From Burkholderiales bacterium (lineage in GTDB: Bacteria; Pseudomonadota; Gammaproteobacteria; Burkholderiales; Burkholderiaceae_C), in NCBI GenBank assembly GCA_028868305.1, contig JAGWUS010000001.1:1-64000 (forward strand): a DNA stretch of 64,000 nt, in the 5' to 3' direction. Positions within the stretch are counted from its first letter, which is position 1. Every line of letters starts with the position of its first letter. Made by a program: the position numbers and the translations under genes. The notes under the pieces are model-generated. The model had not been told where the DNA came from, searched no databases, and saw nothing but the letters and a program-made list of their open reading frames with translations. Positions 10,237 through 64,000 of the stretch are shown piece by piece.

Positions 10237-12663
10237 ATGAACGCCCCTGTTGACGTCTCCTTTTTCGCGCGCGCTGCCAAGCCGCTGACCAGTTACCGCA
10301 AGTACTGGGCGGCCCGCTTTGGTACGGCCCCCTTCCTGCCCATGAGCCGCACCGAGATGGACAAGCTGGGCTGGGACAGCTGCGACGTCATTCTGGTCAC
10401 CGGGGACGCCTATGTGGATCACCCCAGCTTCGGCATGGCGGTGATTGGTCGCATGCTCGAAGCCCAGGGTTTTCGGGTCGGCATCATCGCCCAGCCTGAC
10501 TGGACCAGCGCCGAGGCCTTCAAGGCCCTGGGCAAGCCCAACCTTTTCTGGGGGGTGACCGCGGGCAATATGGACTCCATGATCAACCGCTATACCGCGG
10601 ACCGAAAAATCCGCAGTGACGACGCCTACACCCCGGGCGACGTGGGTGGCAAGCGCCCGGACCGTGCGGCCATCGTCTATAGCCAGCGCTGTCGCGAAGC
10701 CTTCAAGGACGTGCCCATCGTGCTGGGCGGCATTGAAGGCTCCTTGCGCCGCATTGCCCACTACGACTATTGGAGCGACAAGGTCCGCCGCAGCATCGTG
10801 GTGGACGCCAAGTGCGACCTGCTGCTGTACGGCAATGCCGAGCGCGCACTGGTGGAAGTGGCCCACCGCCTGGCCTCCAAGGAGCCGGTGGAACACATTA
10901 CCGATGTGCGCGGCACCGCCTTTGTGCGCCGCACCGATGACGAGACCGCTGTGGGCTGGTTTGAGATTGACTCCACCGAGGTCGACGAGCCGGGGCATGT
11001 CGAGGCGCACATCAACCCCTATATGACGACCTCGGAGCAGGCTACGGCGCAGGGAAGCAGTTGCTCCAAGGACAACGCAGATGCTACTAATTCAGGAGCT
11101 GCTTGTGTAGATTCCACGGGGGCTGCAGGCCAAATTGATACTCAATCGCCTGCAGTGAAGCCGATTGCCTTTGTGGCCAACCCGGCACTGCACGGCAAGC
11201 TGAAAATGCCGCCACGCGACCGCAGCGTAATTCGCCTGCCCAGCTATGAGCAGGTCAAGAGCGACGCCGTGCTCTACGCCCATGCCAACCGTGTGCTGCA
11301 CCTGGAAACCAACCCCGGCAATGCGCGCGCACTGGTACAGGCGCATGGCGGAGGCCTCGATGGCAACGTCGATTCCATGCGTCTGGCGCGCGATGTCTGG
11401 ATTAACCCGCCGCCGATTCCGCTGACCACCGCCGAGATGGACTTCGTGTTTGACCTGCCGTATGCCCGCAGCCCACACCCCAGCTACGCGGATGAGAACG
11501 GCAGCCATGACCATGCCACCAAGATTCCGGCATGGGAGATGATCCGCTTCTCGATCAACATCATGCGCGGCTGTTTTGGCGGATGTACGTTTTGCTCCAT
11601 CACCGAGCACGAAGGCCGCATCATCCAGAGCCGCTCGGAAGACTCGGTCATCAAGGAAATCGAGGACATCCGCGACAAGGTCAAGGGCTTTACCGGCACC
11701 ATTTCCGACTTGGGCGGCCCCACCGCCAATATGTACCGACTGGGTTGCCGCAGCCCCGAAATCGAGGCCGCCTGCCGCAAGCCGAGTTGCGTCTACCCCG
11801 GCATCTGCCAGAACCTGACCACGGACCACGGACCGCTGATCCACATGTACCGCCGCGGTCGCGCGCTCAAGGGCATCAAGAAAATTCTGATCGGCTCGGG
11901 CCTGCGTTACGATCTGGCGGTGAAGAGCCCCGAGTACGTGAAAGAACTGGTCCAGCACCACGTCGGCGGTTACCTGAAGATTGCGCCAGAGCACACCGAG
12001 CAGGGTCCGCTGACCAAGATGATGAAGCCGGGCATCGGCACTTACGACAAGTTCAAGACGCTATTTGAGAAATACTCGCTGGAGGCTGGCAAAAAGCAGT
12101 TCCTGATTCCGTACTTCATTGCCGCCCACCCGGGAACCAGCGACGAAGACATGATGAATCTGGCCGTGTGGCTGAAGAAAAACGGCTTCCGTGCCGACCA
12201 GGTGCAGACCTTCTACCCCAGCCCGATGGCCACCGCCACCGCGATGTACCACACCGGCCTGAACACGCTCAAGGGCGTGCACCGGGATGAACGCGGCGAA
12301 AAGGTGGACGTGGTGCGCGGTGAAAAGCGCCGCCGCCTGCACAAAGCTTTTTTGCGCTACCACGACCCGAACAACTGGCCACTCTTGCGCGAGGCGCTCA
12401 AGGCCATGGGCCGCGCCGACCTGGTCGGCAATGGCAAGCAGCACCTGATTCCGACCTTTCAGCCCTTGGGCGATGGCGGTTACCAGAGCGCGCGCAAGAA
12501 AAATTCCACGCCGGTGGCCGGCAAGCCCAGTGCCAAAGTGGCAGCGGCGCAACCCGTCAAGGGCCGTATGCTGACCCAGCACACCGGCTTGCCACCGCGG
12601 ACCACTGGCGTAGTAAGCCGCCCTGGCAGCCCGGTGGGTGGTGGCAAACGCAAGGGGCGCTAG
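10237..12663 (+). CDS. ygiQ: YgiQ family radical SAM protein
   Basis: Radical-SAM protein of 808 residues. The Cx3Cx2C cluster is CFGGCTFC with cysteines at 446, 450 and 453, preceded by an N-terminal B12-binding-like/UPF0313 region ([20 protein letters not shown]) and followed by the YgiQ C-terminal domain. The length is slightly above usual because of an in-frame stretch around residues 269-308 rich in Ala, Ser and Asp. That stretch is encoded by a copy of the dispersed repeat described separately. The basic C-terminal tail (GGGKRKGR) is typical. The molecular function of the family is not established. Confidence 0.92.
11081..11146 (+). repeat. Dispersed Comamonadaceae-type repeat, copy 1 (inside ygiQ)
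   Basis: This segment contains GCTACTAATTCAGGAGCTGC followed by TTGTGTAGATTCC, GGGGGCTGCAGGCCAAATTG and a short tail. It matches the other copies in order: a GCTA box, an AGCTGC-TTGTG core, a GGGCT-(G)AGGCC box and an AAATTG end. It lies in frame in a non-conserved part of YgiQ and is translated. Confidence 0.75.
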
Positions 12664-55342: not shown

Positions 55343-55432
55343 GGAGCGGTGGATGAGCGGTTTAAGTCACACGCCTGGAAAGCGTGCGTGGGGTAAAACC
55401 CACCGCGGGTTCGAATCCCGCCTGCTCCGCCA
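55343..55432 (+). tRNA. tRNA-Ser (anticodon GGA), integration target
   Basis: The 90-nt sequence has the long variable arm of a Ser tRNA. Acceptor GGAGCGG pairs with CTGCTCC, the anticodon loop is CTGGAAA with GGA, the T-arm contains GGTTCGAATCC and CCA is encoded. Anticodon GGA reads Ser codons UCC/UCU. A tyrosine integrase gene starts 197 bp downstream in the same direction, the usual arrangement for an element integrated at a tRNA 3' end. The matching attR is not in the window. Confidence 0.97.
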
Positions 55433-55479
55433 GAAATAGGTTCTCAACGGTCTCCAACCGTGTAAGCAGACCCCCTAAG

Positions 55480-55518
55480 AGCCCTTGTTTCCCAGTGAAG
55501 CAGGGGCTTTTTTTTTCT
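55480..55518 (+). terminator. Terminator after tRNA-Ser
   Basis: AGCCCTTGTTTC pairs (two G-U wobbles) with GAAGCAGGGGCT and a run of nine or more T follows. It separates the tRNA transcript from the integrase gene. The stem begins about 47 bp after the tRNA. Confidence 0.75.
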
Positions 55519-55551: not shown

Positions 55552-55617
55552 TTTTGTGGGTAACGATGAGGGTAATAAAGCCGTTACCCACACCAGTCCC
55601 CGCCGTTACCCACAAAA
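55552..55617. repeat. Three CGTTACCCAC sites before the integrase gene
   Basis: TTTTGTGGGTAACG (55552-55565) is the exact complement of CGTTACCCACAAAA (55604-55617), and a third CGTTACCCAC lies between (55582-55591). The last site ends 11 bp before the integrase start codon. They could be integrase arm-type sites or operators for integrase autoregulation. Confidence 0.6.
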
Positions 55618-55628
55618 CGGGAGGTTTC

Positions 55629-56855
55629 ATGGCTTTAACTGATACCGCCATCAAGAAGGCGCAGCCAGCCGAAAAGCAATACCGAATGCCTGACGACCGG
55701 GGATTGGTGCTGCTGGTGCGTCCCAACGGTTCCAAGCTGTGGCAATTACGGTACAGGCACGAAGGCAAGGAAAAAACGGCATCCCTAGGGCAATACCCGG
55801 ACGTGAGCCTAGCCGCAGCGCGGGCACTTCGGGACGAGCAGCGTAAGCTGGTTGCCAGTGGCAGCGATCCGGTGGCCGTGAAGCATGCGCAGCGCAAAGC
55901 CAAGGCCGTTTCCAACGCCAATAACTTTGAGGCTGTAGCCCGTGAATGGTGGGACCATTGGAGACACGCCCGGACCAGTGACCACCACGTGACCCAAACT
56001 CTGCGGCGGCTGGAGGCGGACGTTTTTCCAAAAATCGGCACCCGCCCCGTGTCAGAGATTGAAGCCCCCGAACTGGTGGAACTTGCCAAGGACATCGAGA
56101 AGCGCGGCGCCAGTGATTTGGCGAAACGCTCTCTGCAAACATGCAGTCAGATATTCCGCTATGCCATCGCCCACGGTAAGGCGCGGCGTAATCCGGCGTC
56201 GGACGTCAAACCCTCCGAGATACTGAAAGGGCGTAAGGTCGAAAACTTTGCGCGGGTGAGTGCAGCGGAATTGCCTCAGCTACTGCGCAAGATCGAAGCC
56301 TATAAAGGCAAGCCCACAACCCGGCTGGCAATGAAGCTGATGGCCCTGACATTCGTACGTACCAGCGAACTGATTGAGGCGAAGTGGGCAGAGTTTGATT
56401 TAGATGCCGCACGCTGGGATATTCCGGGTGAACGGATGAAAATGAAAACCCCGCACATCGTGCCACTGTCATCACAAGCACTGGATGTGCTGCGCACCCT
56501 GCAGACCATCACAGGTGGGCGGGAGCTTCTATTCCCCGGTGAGCGCGACCACGCCAAGCCAATGAGCAACAACACCATCTTGAAGGCGTTGGAAATCATG
56601 GGGTATGGCCCGCACAGTGCAACACCGCACACAGGCCACGGTTTTCGGGGCATAGCGTCCACAGTTCTGCACGAACACCAGTTCGAACACGCCCACATTG
56701 AGGCGCAGCTAGCCCATGCAGAACGCAGTTCGGTTTCAGCGGCATACAACAAGGCCCAGTACTTGCCCCAGCGGGCGGCAATGATGGCTTGGTGGGGAAA
56801 CTTCGTGGAAGCTGCAGCGAAGGGGAACGTGTTGCCGCTGCGCAAATTGGCGTGA
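55629..56855 (+). CDS. int: Tyrosine-type integrase (P4-like)
   Basis: Site-specific recombinase of 408 residues with an N-terminal arm-binding domain (DUF4102; residues 1-90, LTDTAIKKAQPAEKQYRMPDD), a core-binding SAM-like domain and the catalytic domain. Active-site residues are visible: Arg in LTFVRTSEL, Lys in MKMKTPHIVPLS, HGFR box in TGHGFRGIAST, His in LAHAERSSVS and Tyr in AAYNKAQYLP. It has a strong GGGAGG ribosome site before ATG 55629. It should integrate and excise the element at tRNA-Ser. The element's remaining genes lie downstream in the same direction. Confidence 0.95.
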   Translation: MALTDTAIKKAQPAEKQYRMPDDRGLVLLVRPNGSKLWQLRYRHEGKEKTASLGQYPDVSLAAARALRDEQRKLVASGSDPVAVKHAQRKAKAVSNANNFEAVAREWWDHWRHARTSDHHVTQTLRRLEADVFPKIGTRPVSEIEAPELVELAKDIEKRGASDLAKRSLQTCSQIFRYAIAHGKARRNPASDVKPSEILKGRKVENFARVSAAELPQLLRKIEAYKGKPTTRLAMKLMALTFVRTSELIEAKWAEFDLDAARWDIPGERMKMKTPHIVPLSSQALDVLRTLQTITGGRELLFPGERDHAKPMSNNTILKALEIMGYGPHSATPHTGHGFRGIASTVLHEHQFEHAHIEAQLAHAERSSVSAAYNKAQYLPQRAAMMAWWGNFVEAAAKGNVLPLRKLA

Positions 56856-57075
56856 TTTGTTGCAAATTTGAGTCGCAAACCAAATTTATTTTCTTCCTTA
56901 TCTTGTGGATGCCTGTAGACGCTTAAATACGTACGAATAATTGATTGCTACATAAATGATAGCATAAACGCTATTGATTTAGCCAATTTTGAGATGGTTA
57001 ACCGTTTACGTAAACGCACAGTCATCGTACATTGGAACCCTAAATGCAGCCGTATGGACTGCGGAAAGGGTAACA
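56856..57075. promoter_or_regulatory. A+T-rich regulatory gap before the AlpA-like genes
   Basis: This 220-bp gap contains no gene that I can support. It holds several dyads: GATAGC/GCTATT (56958-56963 and 56970-56975) and the perfect palindrome CGTTTACGTAAACG (57003-57016). These are likely operators for the element's own regulators and the promoter of the plus-strand operon. No -35/-10 pair is clearly best. Confidence 0.45.
57003..57016. promoter_or_regulatory. Perfect 14-bp palindrome, candidate operator
   Basis: CGTTTACGTAAACG is fully symmetrical and lies 60 bp before the first AlpA-like start codon. It is a candidate binding site for a dimeric repressor or for an AlpA-type regulator of the element. 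Confidence 0.45.
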
Positions 57076-57345
57076 ATGCAAGAAGGCGATGCGGAAGCGA
57101 AAAGGACCAGAACTAAAGAGAAAATCGTTGTAGTCCATCCCGATGGACTGTTGCGCGTAGACGAGGTGCAAGTGCTTGCGAAGAAAAGTCGCTCCAGCAT
57201 TTTCAAAGACGTAAAACTCAACCGTTTTCCAGCACCCGTGCGATCTGGGCCCCGTTGGACCCGATGGCACGCAAAGGCCGTCCTTGCTTTTGTGGCTGAT
57301 CCAGCCGCGTGGATTGCCGCCCAAACACAAGAGGTGTCAGCATGA
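57076..57345 (+). CDS. AlpA-like small DNA-binding protein 1
   Basis: Protein of 89 residues. LLRVDEVQVLAKKSRSSIFKDVKLNRFPAPVRSGPRWTRWHAKAV is the AlpA/excisionase-type winged-helix pattern: helix-turn-helix, then a hairpin with a basic turn. AlpA proteins activate excision and early genes in P4-like prophages and phage satellites. It starts with ATG after GGAAAGGG and ends in an ATGA overlap with the next gene. Confidence 0.75.
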   Translation: MQEGDAEAKRTRTKEKIVVVHPDGLLRVDEVQVLAKKSRSSIFKDVKLNRFPAPVRSGPRWTRWHAKAVLAFVADPAAWIAAQTQEVSA

Positions 57346-57578
57346 CATCTTCTAGCAATTTGGTTCCGGTTCGCCGTTGGGTACGGGTCAAACAAGTCGC
57401 GTATCACTATGACGAATTCGGAAACAAAGTCCCCGGCATCCTTCCATTTTCGGTAGCAACGATCTGGCGGCTGACTGCAAAAAAGAAACTACCTCAGCCC
57501 CACCGGTTTGATGGCGGCACATTCTGGGATGCTGCAGAACTAGAGGCGTTTGTGCAAGCCAGAAAGGCTGCGGAATGA
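57342..57578 (+). CDS. AlpA-like small DNA-binding protein 2
   Basis: Protein of 78 residues with a second MerR/AlpA-type helix-turn-helix (ILPFSVATIWRLTAKKKLPQPHRFDGGTFWDAAELEAFV). It overlaps both neighbours by 4 bp. Two such proteins in tandem suggest either a regulator plus an excisionase, or a heterodimer. Confidence 0.7.
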   Translation: MTSSSNLVPVRRWVRVKQVAYHYDEFGNKVPGILPFSVATIWRLTAKKKLPQPHRFDGGTFWDAAELEAFVQARKAAE

Positions 57579-58036
57579 ACCTACCAGTAATTCAACCCCA
57601 TACCGATGACTTCATTGACGATGCAGCCCAATACGCATGCGAAAACTTGGGACTTGATGCGCTGGCAGCAAAGCACCGCATTTCTGCAAGTGCTGCGCTG
57701 GCGCGAATCAGTGACCCGGAAACACTGAAAGCGGTAGAGGCACGGGCAGTGACTTTAGGGCAATCGGGAGCAGCGGCCCGTGCACAGAGTCATGGGCTGC
57801 TTCGTAAGTGCCTCAAGCAGTTGGATAGTCAATTGGAAACCGGGCAACTAGGTGCTGTAACGCTCGTACGGATCGCCGAATTTGTCCACAAGGTTACTGG
57901 CATGGCTCCAATGGAGCGTGCGCCCGTTGCGGAAAACAAGGAAAAATTCTCAGTCCATATCATTCTGTCGAATTCCCCCGGCGGCACACCAGTCGATGTC
58001 ATGGACGTAGTTTCGCGCGAGGTGCGCGATGAGTGA
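57575..58036 (+). CDS. Hypothetical protein of the element
   Basis: Unrecognised protein of 153 residues. It has a helical, Ala-rich N-terminal half (about residues 10-75, including a possible helix-turn-helix, LDALAAKHRISASAALARI) and a second helical stretch RKCLKQLDSQLETGQLGAVTLVRIAEFV. The end is a short beta/loop part. It lies between the AlpA-like genes and the primase, with 4-bp and 8-bp overlaps, so it belongs to the same transcript. Confidence 0.6.
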   Translation: MNLPVIQPHTDDFIDDAAQYACENLGLDALAAKHRISASAALARISDPETLKAVEARAVTLGQSGAAARAQSHGLLRKCLKQLDSQLETGQLGAVTLVRIAEFVHKVTGMAPMERAPVAENKEKFSVHIILSNSPGGTPVDVMDVVSREVRDE

Positions 58037-59186
58037 GTACCTGAGCACTATGCCACTGGCTGACTGGACCAGCGCGACATCTATCTACCCTAGCGCAATG
58101 CAAACAGTTCCGATGGCGGAACACCAACGGTGCACACTGCCTCAGCTCGCAGAAATACTCGCACCTGCAAGTGGGCCACAGGTCATTGCTAACAAATACT
58201 CCGGTAAATACTTCACACCCGGATTGTTGAGAGTCGCCCCGCTAGTAGGAAAAACACTGGAGAGAGCGAAATCATCAGGCTCGCCCCAAACTGGCAAGCA
58301 GCGCAGCACCAGGCATATGACCGATAGCGGCGGGCTTTTGGTCTTTGATTTTGATAAGTCCGACCGCACGCAGGTAGACCGTATCGCAGCACGTTTGGAG
58401 AGCGAATGCATCAGCTATTTCCTCTTTACCTCTTGGAGTATCGGTCTGCCGGAAAAGCCCGGTTACCGTGTGCGCATACTCATCCCAGTGGACGCGGACC
58501 TTGACGGCGCGGCCTACAAACAAACATGGCACGCTTGCAATAAAACCCTGTTTGAGTCTGCCGGGGACCCTAGCGGTGACAAACTCTGTCAGCAGCAAGG
58601 GTGCTGGGCTATCGGGCCGGGACGTGAGAAATTTGCCGAACGGCGCATTTTCATAGGTGGTGTTGCTTCAGTTAAGGCGTTGACACCGACAGTCCCGCAA
58701 ATCGGTCACAGGGTTGCTACCCCCATACGTCAGGCAATAGGCAAAACGTTGCACTGGGACGGACCGCACCCGAGCCTTAAGCAGATAGCTATGGCCGTGG
58801 CAGTAATGGACCCCGACAATTACAGCCATTGGGACCGCACCATATGCCTGCTGATCGCCATTTCAAAGGGCCACGGCATGGACACGGCGCAATTGCTGCG
58901 GATCGCATTGGATTTTGAAAATCGCAGTGCCCAGATAAGCCGTTCAAAGAACGACAGTCCGCAGTATTCAACACCTGCCCGTTTTGCCAACTGGACACCG
59001 GCAATCACTCCTTCTATCGCAGCGGCCAGTCTGTTTGCCATGGCTCGGGACACCGCAGAACAGACCTACCGTAAAGCAGTGCAGACGCATGTTTGGGCCG
59101 GTGCAAAGCCCGCCTGGACATACCTCGCCGGATACCACCCAAAGCGCTGGAGTGAAATCCGTGCCGAATCTGAGGTGCAAGTATGA
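58029..59186 (+). CDS. Primase-polymerase-like protein with PriCT-type domain
   Basis: Protein of 385 residues. The block GLLVFDFDKSDRTQVDRI (DFD at 107-109) followed by YFLFTSWS and GYRVRILIPVDADL has the order of archaeo-eukaryotic-type primase catalytic strands seen in plasmid, phage and satellite RepB/prim-pol proteins. The second half (LKQIAMAVAVMDPDNYSHWDRTICLLIAISKGHG) resembles PriCT-2 domains. It would start DNA synthesis of the excised element. It overlaps the ATPase gene by 4 bp. The assignment is by motif and context only. Confidence 0.6.
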   Translation: MSEYLSTMPLADWTSATSIYPSAMQTVPMAEHQRCTLPQLAEILAPASGPQVIANKYSGKYFTPGLLRVAPLVGKTLERAKSSGSPQTGKQRSTRHMTDSGGLLVFDFDKSDRTQVDRIAARLESECISYFLFTSWSIGLPEKPGYRVRILIPVDADLDGAAYKQTWHACNKTLFESAGDPSGDKLCQQQGCWAIGPGREKFAERRIFIGGVASVKALTPTVPQIGHRVATPIRQAIGKTLHWDGPHPSLKQIAMAVAVMDPDNYSHWDRTICLLIAISKGHGMDTAQLLRIALDFENRSAQISRSKNDSPQYSTPARFANWTPAITPSIAAASLFAMARDTAEQTYRKAVQTHVWAGAKPAWTYLAGYHPKRWSEIRAESEVQV

Positions 59187-60901
59187 AGGCGTTCAAGGAC
59201 CGGCTGCAAGCCGACATGGAACGTCTTGGACTCAAGGAGCCAACACCCATGGCACGCACTACTGCAAACCCAGTGCCACCCAAGTTGACAGTCGTAGCTG
59301 CAGAAGACGACGATGGGCCACCAACGGATGCCGATATCAAGGCGGTGAAGGATGATGTAGGCGCGGACAAGAAAGGCGGGGCAGCAGCAGCTACCAGAGC
59401 CCTGCAGGATAGTCTGGTGTTCTTCATCGATCAGTATGGCGCATTGCGACTGGAAGTGCATCGTTCGAGCGGTCGGACGGATTGCCCACACGCTGACAGC
59501 GAAGACGCTGCTGACTACATCCGGTCCAAACTGCAAAGTGCGTTGGGCGCTGGCAAGACCGTAACTCAAGGCGCGGTAGACGCAGTCATTCAAGGCGGGC
59601 GGGCAAATGCCAGAGCGGAGCAGCTTCGCAGGCAAGTGCACATGCGCGCTGCTAATGACGGCGGCGAAGTAGTAATCGATACGGCTAACAATTCAGGCGA
59701 GCGCATCCGCGTTAGCGCCAGTGGCTACCGCGTGGAAGCTCAAGGAACTACCCTATTTCATCGGGGAAGCGGCATCGGGGTACTTCCGCAGCCAACTCAA
59801 GTGACAGCCCAACAAGGCTACGAAATCCTGAGTAAGTTTGCATCGGCGCATGGTGTTCGTTGTGGAGATATACCAGTCTATGCAATTGTCCTTACCGAAT
59901 ACCTGCGCCCTGGCACACCGCACCCGATACTGGAATTGGTTGGTCCCGCTGGTGCGAGGAAGTCCACGATGGCGAGGGCTACCGTCAGCATTTTTGACCC
60001 CACCCAAAACGGCGAAATTCCAAGCACCGGGATTAATGAGCCGGATGTGATGGCTGCAGCCAGCAACCGATATGCGCTTCACGCTGACAACGTGAGCAAA
60101 CTTTCTGCGGACAACCAAGACTTAACTTGTAGGATATCAACAGGCGGGGAACTTTCGGCACGGCGGTTGTATTCCCAGCGGGAAACTGAGTCCATCCATG
60201 TACAGCGCCCGCAGGTCTACACCTCCATAACGTCAATCTTTACCCGAAGCGATGCGCGGTCCCGAACGCAAACAATTGCGCTGACACCACCCCGTACCGG
60301 GTACAAGTCGGAGTCGGATGTACGGCGAGAATTCAAAGATGGGCACCCGGACTTGCTGGGGGCCGTTTGTGCGTTGCTATCGGTCGGACTTGGGAATCTG
60401 GCAGCGGTAAAGGCTCAGCGGCACTATTCCCACCGAATGGCGGACTTTGAGCAACTGGGTGAAGCCGTGCATCAAGCCCTCGGACAGAAGGCGGGCTGGT
60501 TCGGCGAAATACTGGCAGCACGGCGGCAGGCCGATGCCACCGTAATTGCGGAAGGTGACCTTGTCCTTGTGGGCGTTCTGAAGGTCTTGGACAAATGGGA
60601 GGCGGACACAAAACTGCGGCATGCTTCAAAACCCACGGGACGCGCGATTGCTAGGGACGGCGTGTGCGTATGGGAGGATTCTGGTACGCGGTTCACAGTC
60701 GCCACAACCACGCGCTGGTTACAGGCGGTTTGTCAGGCCATGCCTTTTGATCAGCGAGAGCAGCCTCCAACAAGTGAACGTGCCCTCAAACATGCCATTG
60801 ATCACCGAACCCCAACGCTGGAAGCACTTGGCTTGCGCGTGCAGGCTGCAAAGGCAAATGACAGAAATGCGATTGTTTTCTCCAGAAAGGTTGCCCAATG
60901 A
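59183..60901 (+). CDS. P-loop ATPase/helicase-like replication protein
   Basis: Protein of 572 residues. A low-complexity N-terminal region (PTPMARTTANPVPPK, AAATRALQDS) is followed by an ATPase core with Walker A GPAGARKST at residues 254-262. ADNVSKLSADNQDLTCRIST and SARRLYSQRETESIHVQRP follow, a pattern I know from ATPases next to mobile-element primases (DNvS.LS..sD.lcR..tGG). A winged-helix-like C-terminus (KPTGRAIARDGVCVWEDS) follows. It probably unwinds the origin. It is coupled by ATGA overlaps on both sides. Confidence 0.65.
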   Translation: MKAFKDRLQADMERLGLKEPTPMARTTANPVPPKLTVVAAEDDDGPPTDADIKAVKDDVGADKKGGAAAATRALQDSLVFFIDQYGALRLEVHRSSGRTDCPHADSEDAADYIRSKLQSALGAGKTVTQGAVDAVIQGGRANARAEQLRRQVHMRAANDGGEVVIDTANNSGERIRVSASGYRVEAQGTTLFHRGSGIGVLPQPTQVTAQQGYEILSKFASAHGVRCGDIPVYAIVLTEYLRPGTPHPILELVGPAGARKSTMARATVSIFDPTQNGEIPSTGINEPDVMAAASNRYALHADNVSKLSADNQDLTCRISTGGELSARRLYSQRETESIHVQRPQVYTSITSIFTRSDARSRTQTIALTPPRTGYKSESDVRREFKDGHPDLLGAVCALLSVGLGNLAAVKAQRHYSHRMADFEQLGEAVHQALGQKAGWFGEILAARRQADATVIAEGDLVLVGVLKVLDKWEADTKLRHASKPTGRAIARDGVCVWEDSGTRFTVATTTRWLQAVCQAMPFDQREQPPTSERALKHAIDHRTPTLEALGLRVQAAKANDRNAIVFSRKVAQ

Positions 60902-61260
60902 AGGCGGAGGGTGCAGGCGCTGCAGGCGCAGTGCAGGCGCATATTTTCCTAGCGCCTGCACCCCAGAAACCTAGTATCCATGCGGGTTGCGGGCCGATTT
61001 TGAGCACAAGTGCAGGCGCTGCAGGTGAATTTTTCTACTTCTTCAGAAAAAAAAGAAAAGGAATAGAAGAAGGAAGGAAAGAAGAATATAGAAAGTTTTC
61101 GAAAAATGCACCTGCAGCGCCTGCATCCCATGCTAAAAACGTACGTAAGTCATTGATTTGCATAGGTTTATTGGGTGCAGGCGCAAGCCTTTTTTCCGCC
61201 TGCAATGCGCCTGCAGCGCCTGCACTTGTCTCACCTCGTCGCATCGGTAGAAAGCCGTGA
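60898..61260 (+). CDS. Short open frame spanning the symmetrical repeat block
   Basis: Frame of 120 codons starting in an ATGA overlap with the ATPase gene and ending in a GTGA overlap with the next gene. It is dominated by the repeat: GAGAAGAVQAH, LAPAPQKP, AGAAGEFFYFF, then a lysine-rich stretch (FRKKRKGIEEGRKEEYRKF) and APAAPAS/APAAPALV. The opposite strand of the same block encodes a peptide of similar sequence (AGAAGALQAEK, LAPAPNKP, AGAAGAFFENF). Either the frame is translated as a passenger of an origin or it is coding and structural together. No family recognised. Confidence 0.35.
   Translation: MKAEGAGAAGAVQAHIFLAPAPQKPSIHAGCGPILSTSAGAAGEFFYFFRKKRKGIEEGRKEEYRKFSKNAPAAPASHAKNVRKSLICIGLLGAGASLFSACNAPAAPALVSPRRIGRKP
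60912..61224. repeat. Mirror-symmetric iteron array, candidate replication origin
   Basis: Ten copies of TGCAGGCGC or its complement GCGCCTGCA. Plus copies: 60912, 60921, 60932, 61011, 61176. Minus copies: 60952, 61117, a one-mismatch copy (ccgcctgca) at 61196, 61207, 61216. Every copy has a partner equally far from 61068, so order +++-+|-+--- is an exact mirror. Between the arms (61029-61105) is a pyrimidine then polypurine, A-rich stretch with few G/C pairs. Extra mirrored words are AAACCTA (60968 on plus, 61164-61170 on minus) and GGTG-ATTTTTC near 61024 and 61110. It lies right after the primase and ATPase genes. Confidence 0.7.
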
Positions 61261-61589
61261 ACAAGGACTTAGCGCCCTTCATTCGCAATGCACAACGCAT
61301 TGCAAAACTGCCGCACGTGCCGACGCCACTGCCCCAACTCAAGTCCGTGACCGGACTGACTGCCTACGCATTGCGCCACCAATTTGAACTCGTTGGATGG
61401 ACTGCTGAGTGGGTGTGGGCCCGGCTCCCATCGGGCAAGCGCTTGTTAACCAAGTGGTGGTGCCCACCGGGTACCAACGCACCCAGACCTCCGCGCGGTA
61501 GGCCCAAGACGCGCATCACAGGCCTCGACATCTATACCAATTGGCGTGCGGGCCCGATGGAATTGGCAGACAAAGAAAGGCAACTATGA
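61257..61589 (+). CDS. Hypothetical protein of the element
   Basis: Unrecognised protein of 110 residues from a GTG overlapping the previous stop. It has a basic, Pro-rich C-terminal part (TNAPRPPRGRPKTRITG) and a W/R-rich middle (WTAEWVWARLPSGKRLLTKWW). The C-terminus ends in an ATGA overlap with the next gene. The basic character suggests nucleic-acid binding, but no domain is recognised. Confidence 0.55.
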   Translation: MNKDLAPFIRNAQRIAKLPHVPTPLPQLKSVTGLTAYALRHQFELVGWTAEWVWARLPSGKRLLTKWWCPPGTNAPRPPRGRPKTRITGLDIYTNWRAGPMELADKERQL

Positions 61590-62206
61590 GATACACAGAC
61601 GAGGACTTTCGAATAGACCTCCCATTACCTAAAGCGGAAATAAACGTCCGCGATGGCAGTGCCGTTACTACCTACAACCTCCCCGTGCTACCCGGAGTGG
61701 GACAGCATGTATACGCATACTTCTGCGAGCAGGTTAGTACTATGGCTTCTGTCGATATCGACCAACTTGGACCTGAAGACCCGGACATGGAGGCTCGCAT
61801 CGTGACCTCCTTCGTAGTCGCCAGAATGACCAGTGGCGAAGGTTCCCGTGGAACAGGTGCTCCAGACCCTACACGCGCATGGGCAGAACGTGCGGCAGTG
61901 GCAACGTGGGAATTCGCCCGAACACTTGTAAATACCTCGGAGCGCACTGGCCGACATGCGTGGCAACAAAGTGCCCCAGACCATCTGCGTGAAGCCCACA
62001 AGGGGTACGTGATGGACTCTTGGATGGATGTCTTGCCGAAACTCGTTGGGCAGGCCGAGGCTGCGAAAAAAGCATTCAATGCGCTGCGGATTGGCAATCC
62101 TCCCATGACCCCTGCAGAAATCGTGGGGGTGGTACTCAGTGCCATGCCGGGTATGATGGAACGTGCACACCCGGAGGTGGTGCCCAGTTTGAAGCCGATG
62201 TATTGA
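61586..62206 (+). CDS. Hypothetical protein, last gene of the element's plus-strand operon
   Basis: Unrecognised acidic-start protein of 206 residues (MRYTDEDFRIDLPLPKAEIN). The central part is alpha-helical with ARMTSGEGSRGTGAPDPTRAWAERAAVATWEFARTL; MTPAEIVGVVLSAMPGM ends it. It has an AAAGG ribosome site and overlaps the preceding stop. Its stop is 20 bp from the convergent GIY-YIG-type gene. Confidence 0.6.
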   Translation: MRYTDEDFRIDLPLPKAEINVRDGSAVTTYNLPVLPGVGQHVYAYFCEQVSTMASVDIDQLGPEDPDMEARIVTSFVVARMTSGEGSRGTGAPDPTRAWAERAAVATWEFARTLVNTSERTGRHAWQQSAPDHLREAHKGYVMDSWMDVLPKLVGQAEAAKKAFNALRIGNPPMTPAEIVGVVLSAMPGMMERAHPEVVPSLKPMY

Positions 62207-62225: not shown

Positions 62226-63992
62226 TCACCCCCACTTAACACTGACAAGATATGAATCACCTCCGGTGCAGCCCTGCAGATCGCCGATAGCTATTTGGTA
62301 GTTATCGGTATTTGCAATTTGTTCATCGGACATGTCCAGATCAAAATGTTTTAGGCTTGCTGAAACTTGATAGCCCTTGATTTCTAGAATCTCCGCCAAT
62401 GGCAGAGGGTGTACATGCATTAAATACCCCTCATCAGCAACGAAAACTGGAGAAGAATATTCGCGTTCTTGAATTTCTTGCCAGTATTCAAAGCGCTGGC
62501 GTTCTTCATAACTCATATCCTCCTTGTCTGGTACGTCAATGCCTTCAAGATTAACCGAATATGGAAATTTTTGATCTGCGTCGTCTGCCACCCAAAATTC
62601 AAACTGCCTGCTAGTTGCGCCAGATCGCGCGGCGTATTCGAGATCATCGTTGAAATATTTTTCCCATCGCGGCCATACTGCAGATACCCACTTTAGTTTT
62701 CCAGCGGAGGCAACTCTATAGGGGCCATATTCTGCGACTGCATCAGCCCAAGTTAACTTAACGGCTCGATGGCAGTCAGTCGGAATTTCACGATTGCACT
62801 CCATCACTTTCAGTAACTTCAAATTCAATTCTTCTAAGGCAAACATTGCCCGCGCCACTGTTTCTATACTTCCCCGGCTTTGGTGGAAAGCTTCCACAGG
62901 TAAAAAAGAAAACTTAGACAGAATTTGAATTACTTTATCAACCGTGAGTTCGACTGATTCACCATGGAAGCACTTGGCAACCAGCGCATCAAAGTCTTTT
63001 GCATAAGCATTGGGATATATGCGAGTGGCACTTGGTGGAAGGCTTTCCTTTGCGGCCAACATTGCTTGCGTGAAATTTAGCTCGTACCTGTCTTTTTCAC
63101 TTTTTAGAAAGCGTTCACGTGCTTCATCTCTCCTAGATTCCTCTACCGTGAATTCATTGAGGTCCAATAGCGAAACTATTTTCTGATCAAAGTACACCCA
63201 GCTTTTGCGGTTCAATGCCGCTGCCATGGTCGCTTGGTAAAAGGCGTCAACAAGTTTTTGATCTTCAATTAGTCTTTGCTTTTCAACTTGCGCTATTTGT
63301 TTCTGGTGTTTAAGTGCTTCCTCCGACATTCGCTGTAATGTTTGTGGGGAAAGCACGCTGGTGATGGTGGTCTTACCAGTTGTTTGATCAAACGCTATTC
63401 TTTTTTTGATTGCTGGCTTATTTGCGTTGGGTGTGTTTGCACCGGATTCTTTTTCCAACGAATTAGTGGCGCGTTCTCTTACGTCCAATTTTCCAGCAAC
63501 CGCCTGCATGTTGGAGTCGCTATTTTCAGACCCCGATGCAATTGTTACTTCGCCGACTCTTGTACCTGCATTGACTATCTCCGTCATAGCGTCCATCGGG
63601 TCGACATGCTCAGTACTAAATAACTCGCGGCACTCTCGCTCTGCGCCATCTTTGAAGTAGGTGGCTTGTGCTTGCCATCGCGACAACGCCTTGTGGACCT
63701 CAAACTCCACTTTCCCAGCATGCGCAAACTCGGCGCTGCCAAAGTATTTCCAATCGTCGGCACCCCCATAGCGGTACACATTCAGCTGCGCTGTGCGCGC
63801 TGCGGGGTCTGATGCCATTCCAACTTTGATTAATTTCTTGCTATCCGATTCGGCCACATAGACTTTTCCCTGTTGTGTATATCGTTTGAGATAACCCAGC
63901 GCAGCCGGTCGACATTGAACACAGTCACTGTTTCGCGTCCGAAGTTGATGGCCAGCAATACCGCACGGTGAGCCGCCATACGCGACCCACAT
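62226..63992 (-). CDS. GIY-YIG (T5orf172/MUG113-like) domain protein with long C-terminal extension
   Basis: Protein of 588 residues from the ATG at 63992; an upstream start outside the window is possible as only 8 bp of sequence remain. CGIAGHQLRTRNSDCVQC is a Cys/His cluster, then GKVYVAESDSKKLIKVGMASD is the GIY-YIG-like strand pair. A conserved Arg (PAARTAQLNVYRYGG) and an acidic/His block (VEFEVHKALSRW; ELFSTEHVDPMDAM) follow. The remaining ~430 residues are helical and acidic, with no domain recognised. The gene is opposite to the element operon, and visibly richer in A+T. This is typical of a cargo gene, and nuclease or defence activity is possible. Confidence 0.65.
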   Translation of the reverse strand: MWVAYGGSPCGIAGHQLRTRNSDCVQCRPAALGYLKRYTQQGKVYVAESDSKKLIKVGMASDPAARTAQLNVYRYGGADDWKYFGSAEFAHAGKVEFEVHKALSRWQAQATYFKDGAERECRELFSTEHVDPMDAMTEIVNAGTRVGEVTIASGSENSDSNMQAVAGKLDVRERATNSLEKESGANTPNANKPAIKKRIAFDQTTGKTTITSVLSPQTLQRMSEEALKHQKQIAQVEKQRLIEDQKLVDAFYQATMAAALNRKSWVYFDQKIVSLLDLNEFTVEESRRDEARERFLKSEKDRYELNFTQAMLAAKESLPPSATRIYPNAYAKDFDALVAKCFHGESVELTVDKVIQILSKFSFLPVEAFHQSRGSIETVARAMFALEELNLKLLKVMECNREIPTDCHRAVKLTWADAVAEYGPYRVASAGKLKWVSAVWPRWEKYFNDDLEYAARSGATSRQFEFWVADDADQKFPYSVNLEGIDVPDKEDMSYEERQRFEYWQEIQEREYSSPVFVADEGYLMHVHPLPLAEILEIKGYQVSASLKHFDLDMSDEQIANTDNYQIAIGDLQGCTGGDSYLVSVKWG

Positions 63993-64000
63993 ATCCAAGT

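Follow-up and report, generated by a model that had tools for sequence, protein, structure and literature searches.

The 64,000-nt stretch analysed in this study, hereafter called the window, covers positions 1-64,000 of contig JAGWUS010000001.1 (assembly GCA_028868305.1). It carries the left part of an integrative element of about 11.9 kb at a tRNA-Ser gene, and the subject of this report is an array of repeated 9-mers (iterons) at 60911-61225 in that element, which we regard as a candidate replication origin. The array, the two genes before it and the gene after it are as follows; L040 is a related element described below.

58029..59186, + strand: putative primase; weak match to the helicase-primase family PHROG 3228 (E 0.015); L040 homologue in the same position (31-32% identity)
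59183..60901, + strand: Rep-like P-loop ATPase, proposed initiator/helicase; Walker A-like GPAGARKST (by eye); homologues in elements and plasmids
60898..61260, + strand: open reading frame (ORF) of 120 aa across the array, probably translated spacer; overlaps the end of the ATPase gene at ATGA and the following start codon at GTGA
60912..60960: left outer iteron cluster (sites 60912+, 60921+, 60932+, 60952-)
61011..61028, + strand: left inner tandem pair (sites 61011+ and 61020+, the latter with two mismatches)
61029..61107: centre between the inner pairs, proposed melting site; polypurine tract 61046-61095 on the + strand (47/50)
61108..61125, - strand: right inner tandem pair (sites 61108-, with one mismatch, and 61117-)
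61176..61224: right outer iteron cluster (sites 61176+, 61196- with one mismatch, 61207-, 61216-)
61257..61589, + strand: small gene; 45% identity to the L040 gene after its array

The iteron TGCAGGCGC forms six mirrored pairs, that is, 12 sites, two of them degenerate. All pairs sum to 122136, which places the mirror centre at 61068. The sign string of the sites is +++-++|--+---, and the spacings between their starts are 9,11,20,59,9|88|9,59,20,11,9. The original prediction had described ten copies, and all ten were confirmed in position and strand, including the single-mismatch copy in the right arm (61196-61204). Its mirror layout around 61068 also stands; the count of ten and the signs (+++-+ then -+---) do not, because the sixth pair had been overlooked. 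Its left member, 61020-61028 (TGCAGGTGA), has two mismatches and its right member, 61108-61116, has one; the two have the same sum of 122136. When two mismatches were allowed, the window gained one additional outlying site. There are nine exact copies of TGCAGGCGC inside 320 bp, and outside the array locus no 9-mer in the window reaches more than three copies per 320 bp. At no more than one mismatch, TGCAGGCGC has 82 matches in the whole window, where 55 (sd 8) would be expected; isolated copies are thus frequent, and it is the clustering alone that is remarkable. The claimed polypurine centre was also borne out: no other 50-mer of the window is as rich in purines as 61046-61095. In addition, 61036-61100 has A or T at 47 of 65 positions, so that an AT-rich region is flanked by the two iteron sets, and the whole array lies 3' to the ATPase gene.

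The two arms (60911-61035 and 61101-61225) align without a gap over 125 nt, with 85 matches by direct count (74% in a separate alignment of the same stretch). This gap-free alignment is what a recent functionless inverted duplication would leave. However, the matches are concentrated in the sites: the site columns are identical at 52 of 54 positions and the remaining columns at 33 of 71 (Fisher p 4e-10), which agrees with the earlier claim that sites are kept while spacers diverge. Moreover, a different 9-mer is mirrored in L040, and the same sign string occurs in another phylum, as described below. A functionless duplication is therefore hardly credible. The conspicuous non-site columns shared between the arms are ATTTTTC (7/7) and AAACCTA, both of which had been noticed before; AAACCTA also stands out in the long spacer 60961-61010, of which 20 of 50 positions are kept between the arms (shuffle p 0.0085).

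The nearest relative found is L040 (genome G447, same genus). Its integrase is 82% identical to that of the window element and likewise sits after tRNA-Ser(GGA), and its ATPase is 38% identical. The same slot in L040 is occupied by a mirrored array built from another 9-mer, CGCCAGCGT and variants, with six sites per side by eye and eleven sites at no more than two mismatches. This array includes a 29-nt perfect inner inverted repeat and a purine-rich centre (34/40). The original prediction of an origin could be judged by whether elements sharing its replication genes also have an array, and this comparison thus gave a supporting result. A pattern-based scan of genome contigs with a two-row alignment found one locus, apparently the L040 contig itself.

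Homologues of the window ATPase were searched with E <= 0.001 (1e-5 for plasmid records). They were found in 5 of 102 other genomes of the genus, 12 of 398 of the family (six of them weak), 10 of 398 of the order and 10 of 368 of the class, as well as in 28 of 72,556 plasmid records and 2 of 50,697 phage records, both of one phage. A search with alignment A1 matched nine viral contigs; the window ATPase itself gave six pattern matches among viral contigs, with no relative among them. No Pfam family matched the window ATPase, and ten members of the ATPase family had no match in PHROGs. In profile searches against solved structures, nothing convincing was among the matches listed for A1, and those listed for alignment A4 were short P-loop matches with ABC transporters at the top.

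Arrays were then surveyed at 61 loci, 60 of which have a local ATPase match; L032 (no local match), L056 (which seems to be the L040 contig), L060 (a repeat of the L059 match) and L155 (taken as a duplicate of L067, with which it agrees in size and in the end of its sequence) were dropped as rows. The strict detector required 9-mers at no more than one mismatch, in tandem at 8-12 bp on both strands, with at least five sites. It found 25 mirrored arrays in the 60 loci, and 22 of them had their midpoint at -350..+1000 of the ATPase 3' end, an interval that makes up 9.5% of the 828,052 bases scanned; the other three (L025, L027, L070) lie away from it. The near-gene arrays include those of Streptomyces (pFP11), Methylobacterium and Chloroflexota plasmids, and the array of an archaeal plasmid is weaker. 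The expected recurrence of mirrored arrays at the 3' ends of ATPase homologues was therefore found in wider relatives as well, plasmids included. A looser count placed the top-copy array at or after the ATPase gene in six of seven whole plasmids. These are S. melanogenes (L069), S. alfalfae (L070), pFP11 (L071) and pFP12 (L072), pM44602 (L068), with one listed gene between, and the Methanothrix plasmid pH6Ac (L066), in which the array lies within the 3' part of the ATPase gene; no array was seen by this count in the Methylobacterium bullatum plasmid (L067). Under the strict detector, pH6Ac has just four sites, and near-gene arrays are missing from L070 and L072.

The site geometry also recurs. 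L108, part of a 375-kb Chloroflexota plasmid, has 12 sites at no more than two mismatches, and its sign string, +++-++|--+---, is the same as that of the window, with start spacings of 8,10,22,44,8|65|8,56,22,10,8. The remaining eleven arrays compared have sign strings different from this one. A module of three tandem sites and then one inverted site (spacings 8-10, 10-12 and 18-23, here called 9-11-20) occurred nine times near the gene (twice in the window, twice in L108, and in L062, L063, L069, L070 and L072) and not once in 735,323 bases away from it. The cores can be aligned by eye (CAGGCGCTG in the window, TGGACGCTG in L062 and GTGACGCTG in L108). A different core, GTTCAC/GTGAAC, is found in L042, L078, L079 and L101, and we take it to resemble the phage P4 alpha iteron. 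When iteron classes assigned by eye (39 of 54 rows) were placed on a tree of the ATPase, 16 changes were needed against a shuffled mean of 27 and minimum of 23 (200 shuffles). The tree left out L112 and the weak-match loci L029, L030, L031, L033 and L034.

Polypurine tracts were scanned from -450 to +1150 of the ATPase 3' end in 60 loci, defined as 40-mers in which 33 or more bases of the ATPase-sense strand are purines. Such 40-mers occurred in 8 of the 60 loci, and the pyrimidine equivalent (33 or more of 40) in none. The tracts of L044 and L080 lie outside any array, and L066 adds a tract of 40/40 at -514. Arrays with purine-rich 40-mers in ATPase sense are those of the window, L040, L066, L068, L071, L108 and L111, and the majority of the strict-set arrays have no polypurine tract. 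L111 is the Streptomyces linear plasmid pFRL5, which has an ATPase homologue and a polypurine stretch (37/40) flanked by inverted GCGTCAT-like repeats. These flanking iterons were seen by eye, and no near-gene array passed the detector there; perhaps the same type of origin is used on a linear replicon.

The frame of the 120-aa ORF stays open across the whole array, which is improbable by chance (p 0.0044 in a block shuffle of the spacers that left the sites in place). The L040 counterpart (10361-10672) has a chance probability of 0.035, and both ORFs begin at the stop codon of the ATPase gene and run into the gene that follows. In addition, the midpoint of 12 of the 22 strict near-gene arrays falls within the ATPase frame, and a lipobox-like LFSAC was seen by eye in the 120-aa ORF. 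These observations would fit a real protein gene with repeated codons, whose symmetry is a by-product of coding. However, inverted symmetry of nucleotides around one centre is not a consequence of coding, the 120-aa query had no tblastn match in L040, and the arrays of S. melanogenes, S. alfalfae and pFP11 fall in no listed gene, although the gene table is incomplete. We consider a protein gene of this kind highly unlikely, and despite the open frame we did not retain the reading of a conserved protein. Since the arrays of many relatives fall in coding sequence, the ORF is probably a spacer whose translation keeps the operon genes coupled.

The array DNA folds strongly (z-score -11.9), and a motif scan of the locus gave three terminator-like matches against 1.4 expected and no promoter-like match. 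Both the fold and the terminator-like matches could be accounted for by a long hairpin acting as a terminator or regulator of the operon. Nevertheless, the frame is held open across the array, a hairpin has no need of sites on mixed strands at recurrent spacing, and Rfam gave only matches far below the gathering score (five microRNA models and Enterococcus-1 RNA). An RNA element is even less likely than a protein gene.

Plasmid iterons often double as copy-control sites, and in the Streptomyces plasmids L069 and L070 the array lies between the ATPase gene and a ParA gene. The array might thus be a partition site (a parS-like centromere) or a set of copy-control or incompatibility iterons instead of a start site. 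However, no ParA model was matched by the window-element ORFs scanned with Pfam (some small ORFs were outside the scan) or by the four L040 ORFs scanned, and the strict-set arrays accompany the ATPase. Furthermore, the comparable site of plasmid pWTY27 is bound by RepA and lies within the minimal replication locus, as far as the passages of PMC3583192 on this plasmid describe it. A partition or copy-control site is improbable, if somewhat less so than a protein gene.

Which protein would bind the iterons is suggested by the genes beside the arrays. Ten primase-like partner genes were chosen by eye among 49 upstream ORFs: seven match TOPRIM models, one matches a DnaG-type zinc ribbon just below the cut-off, and the partners of L079 and L108 gave no match. 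The partners in pFP11 (PF09250) and S. melanogenes are Prim-Pol enzymes, and Methanothrix pH6Ac has a Prim-Pol-like fusion just below the Pfam cut-off. The partner primases vary while the ATPase and the array are constant, and therefore the ATPase is the likeliest binder.

Starting from what is directly seen (the sites, their mirror layout, position and spacing, the recurrence beside homologous genes and the polypurine centre), we propose that 60911-61225 is an iteron-type bidirectional replication origin of the 11.9-kb tRNA-Ser element, bound by the ATPase, with a probability of roughly 0.87 judged from sequence. The ATPase made from the gene just upstream would bind the twelve 9-mers, and each outer cluster (three tandem sites and one inverted, spaced 9, 11 and 20) together with its inner tandem pair would form one protein complex per side. 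The 79-bp centre, whose 50-bp core is nearly all purine on the ATPase-sense strand, would then melt. Because the halves of the array are mirror images, one ATPase ring would be loaded per strand, facing outward from the centre, and two forks would depart in opposite directions, presumably primed by the neighbouring primase-like protein.

Several points weigh against this proposal. Profile searches with the product of 58029-59186 gave no match in Pfam, NCBIfam or solved structures; the gene may encode a diverged primase. The original prediction had placed the array directly after an ATPase-like and a primase-like gene: the former holds, and the latter has only the PHROG match mentioned above. 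Three choices were made post hoc, namely the interval counted as near, the set of seven polypurine examples and the 9-11-20 module, the last being defined from the cases themselves. Arrays of exactly four sites occur four times near the gene and 13 times elsewhere, and they are mostly noise. In the clade of L023, L024, L025 and L027, mirrored repeats with an ATCAC-like core lie upstream of the ATPase gene or of its end. No array was seen in 15 of the 54 tree rows. A fresh set of ten loci was taken from a phylum search, which had matches in 229 of 398 genomes (many of those listed being short P-loop matches) and from which 11 non-window matches with E < 1e-70 were kept, one being the L067 duplicate; at the strict threshold none of the ten had an array. 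GC skew in six plasmids and the element had an extremum near the array in three of seven cases, with differing signs and no consistent signal. Finally, the window ATPase is only 24-31% identical to its plasmid homologues, and the pFP11 gene is equated with the published RepA through its place by the densest array of that plasmid.

With looser detectors, four of the ten fresh loci (L156, L158, L159 and L162) had arrays, all near the gene and none elsewhere, which is weaker support. In L162 the array surrounds a purine-rich stretch (31/40, the maximum of the locus). By eye, L160 also has an array, L163 has direct repeats only, and none was seen in L157, L161, L164 and L165. The Stanieria plasmids L107, L109 and L110 have an ATPase homologue and no array was found nearby. 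The gene after the ATPase in L107 and L109 belongs to the NADAR family, perhaps pointing to a use other than replication.

The proposed origin is of a known kind, from which it is set apart by its integrated setting, the geometry shared across phyla and the varied primase partners. Streptomyces plasmids of the repAB-iteron type, as described in the relevant sections of PMC3583192, resemble the window in that a Rep gene (Rep-like in the window) and its primase partner (putative in the window) lie next to an array of both direct and inverted iterons. According to the same sections, the minimal locus of pWTY27 consists of repA, repB (primase/polymerase) and the adjacent iteron; its RepA (522 aa) gives footprints at 405-447 and 462-509, over a long, intact inverted repeat of about 105 bp; replication was judged bidirectional from telomere attachment; and work on pFP11 Rep binding its iterons is cited. 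The window differs from these plasmids in its integration at tRNA-Ser, its iteron sequence, its unclassified primase-like partner, its fully mirrored 12 sites and the ORF across the array. In pFP11, as in the window, an ATPase homologue is followed by a mirrored array with a polypurine centre. The window ATPase and the pFP11 gene beside the array share 27.3% identity over residues 152-434 (E 2e-15), and the latter probably corresponds to the published RepA. Unlike the pFP11 partner, the partner 58029-59186 has no Pfam match. No description of the window ATPase family was recognised in the literature searched, whose coverage is thin for subscription papers, including the original pFP11 work.

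Among phage satellites, the origin of Gram-negative phage-inducible chromosomal islands (PICIs) lies immediately 3' to rep and has two iteron sets around an AT-rich region, a layout that the relevant part of PMC6092414 says is shared by no other known bacterial replicon. The window resembles this description in the place of its origin, its two flanking iteron sets, its integrase and its AlpA-like gene. In PICIs, int and alpA are rightward, as are the corresponding window genes, yet the window ORF 62226-63998 is leftward. No PICI packaging or interference genes were recognised among the element ORFs scanned. The initiator of PLE belongs to another family (PMC7145576).

The alpha protein of phage P4 is a single polypeptide, a primase-helicase with a TOPRIM-type primase, which binds origin repeats through a winged helix. 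The proposed window origin is similar in having repeats that a replication protein would bind, and a mirrored layout is not known to be part of the P4 origin. P4 alpha is also mentioned in PMC4234260, which deals with pRN1. According to that paper, pRN1 requires a stem-loop of 100 nt that lies 3' of its replication gene. Its family resembles the window in that the origin lies just 3' of the primase-helicase gene and a long inverted repeat is kept in structure while diverging in sequence. It differs in that the stem-loop has no iterons and a single replication polypeptide is used, whereas the window has separate genes and iterons.

Taken more widely, the loci may define an unnamed initiator family, for which Pfam has no model, with a conserved origin code: the sign string +++-++|--+---, the 9-11-20 spacing and a polypurine centre on the rep-sense strand. 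The geometry would be kept across phyla, more loosely in the archaeal plasmid; the 9-mer would vary along with the initiator, and the TOPRIM or Prim-Pol partner would be swapped. The code could be written inside a translated frame and would serve plasmids, virus-like contigs and integrative elements. We hold this generalisation to be an even bet. If it is true, the PICI-like layout is not peculiar to PICIs, and since the two-sided layout occurs on plasmids too, this runs counter to the published statement, as worded in the part of PMC6092414 cited above, that restricts it to PICIs. One replicon type would link the integrated element with Streptomyces, Methylobacterium, Chloroflexota and archaeal plasmids. 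It would also offer a route from sequence alone to origins and initiators in a family whose members mostly carry the annotation hypothetical protein or ATP-binding protein, and it predicts that the initiator reads the site spacing as an assembly.

The remaining features of the element are as follows.

55343..55432, + strand: tRNA-Ser (GGA), integration target (ARAGORN); the same tRNA lies beside the L040 integrase
55427..55513: attL-like direct repeat, 87 bp; partner at contig 67286-67372 (L022:3286-3372), beyond the window; 96.6% identical
55554..56855, + strand: tyrosine integrase, start codon provisional (Pfam PF13356, PF22022, PF00589)
56989..57345, + strand: AlpA-like regulator (Pfam PF05930, E 5.6e-5)
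57309..57578, + strand: helix-turn-helix or excisionase-like protein (PHROG 66, E 1.8e-5)
57575..58036, + strand: small operon ORF; no Pfam or NCBIfam match, weak match to an unnamed PHROG
61586..62206, + strand: element ORF; no match in PHROG or NCBIfam scans, nor in Pfam with an earlier start

The 87-bp repeats that bound the element overlap the tRNA-Ser(GGA) gene on the left side. For comparison with empty sites, 11 loci of the same genus, each no longer than about 3.5 kb, were used, and three of them (L114, L115 and L118) are free of the element. In these three, sequence matching the contig from about 67,820, that is, from about 450 bp past the right repeat, begins no more than about 60-110 bp after the left flank with the tRNA. 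The claim of an integrative element is thus backed both by the attachment-like repeats and by congeners that lack it.

Between the left repeat and the integrase start, at 55555-55614, there are four copies or near copies of TGTGGGTAA (+,+,-,-), possibly arm-type binding sites of the integrase. In addition, the leftward ORF 62226-63998 (- strand) encodes a T5orf172-domain protein, and an ORF of the same element at L022:1953-2555 has a sub-threshold GIY-YIG match; each is possibly a homing or defence nuclease.

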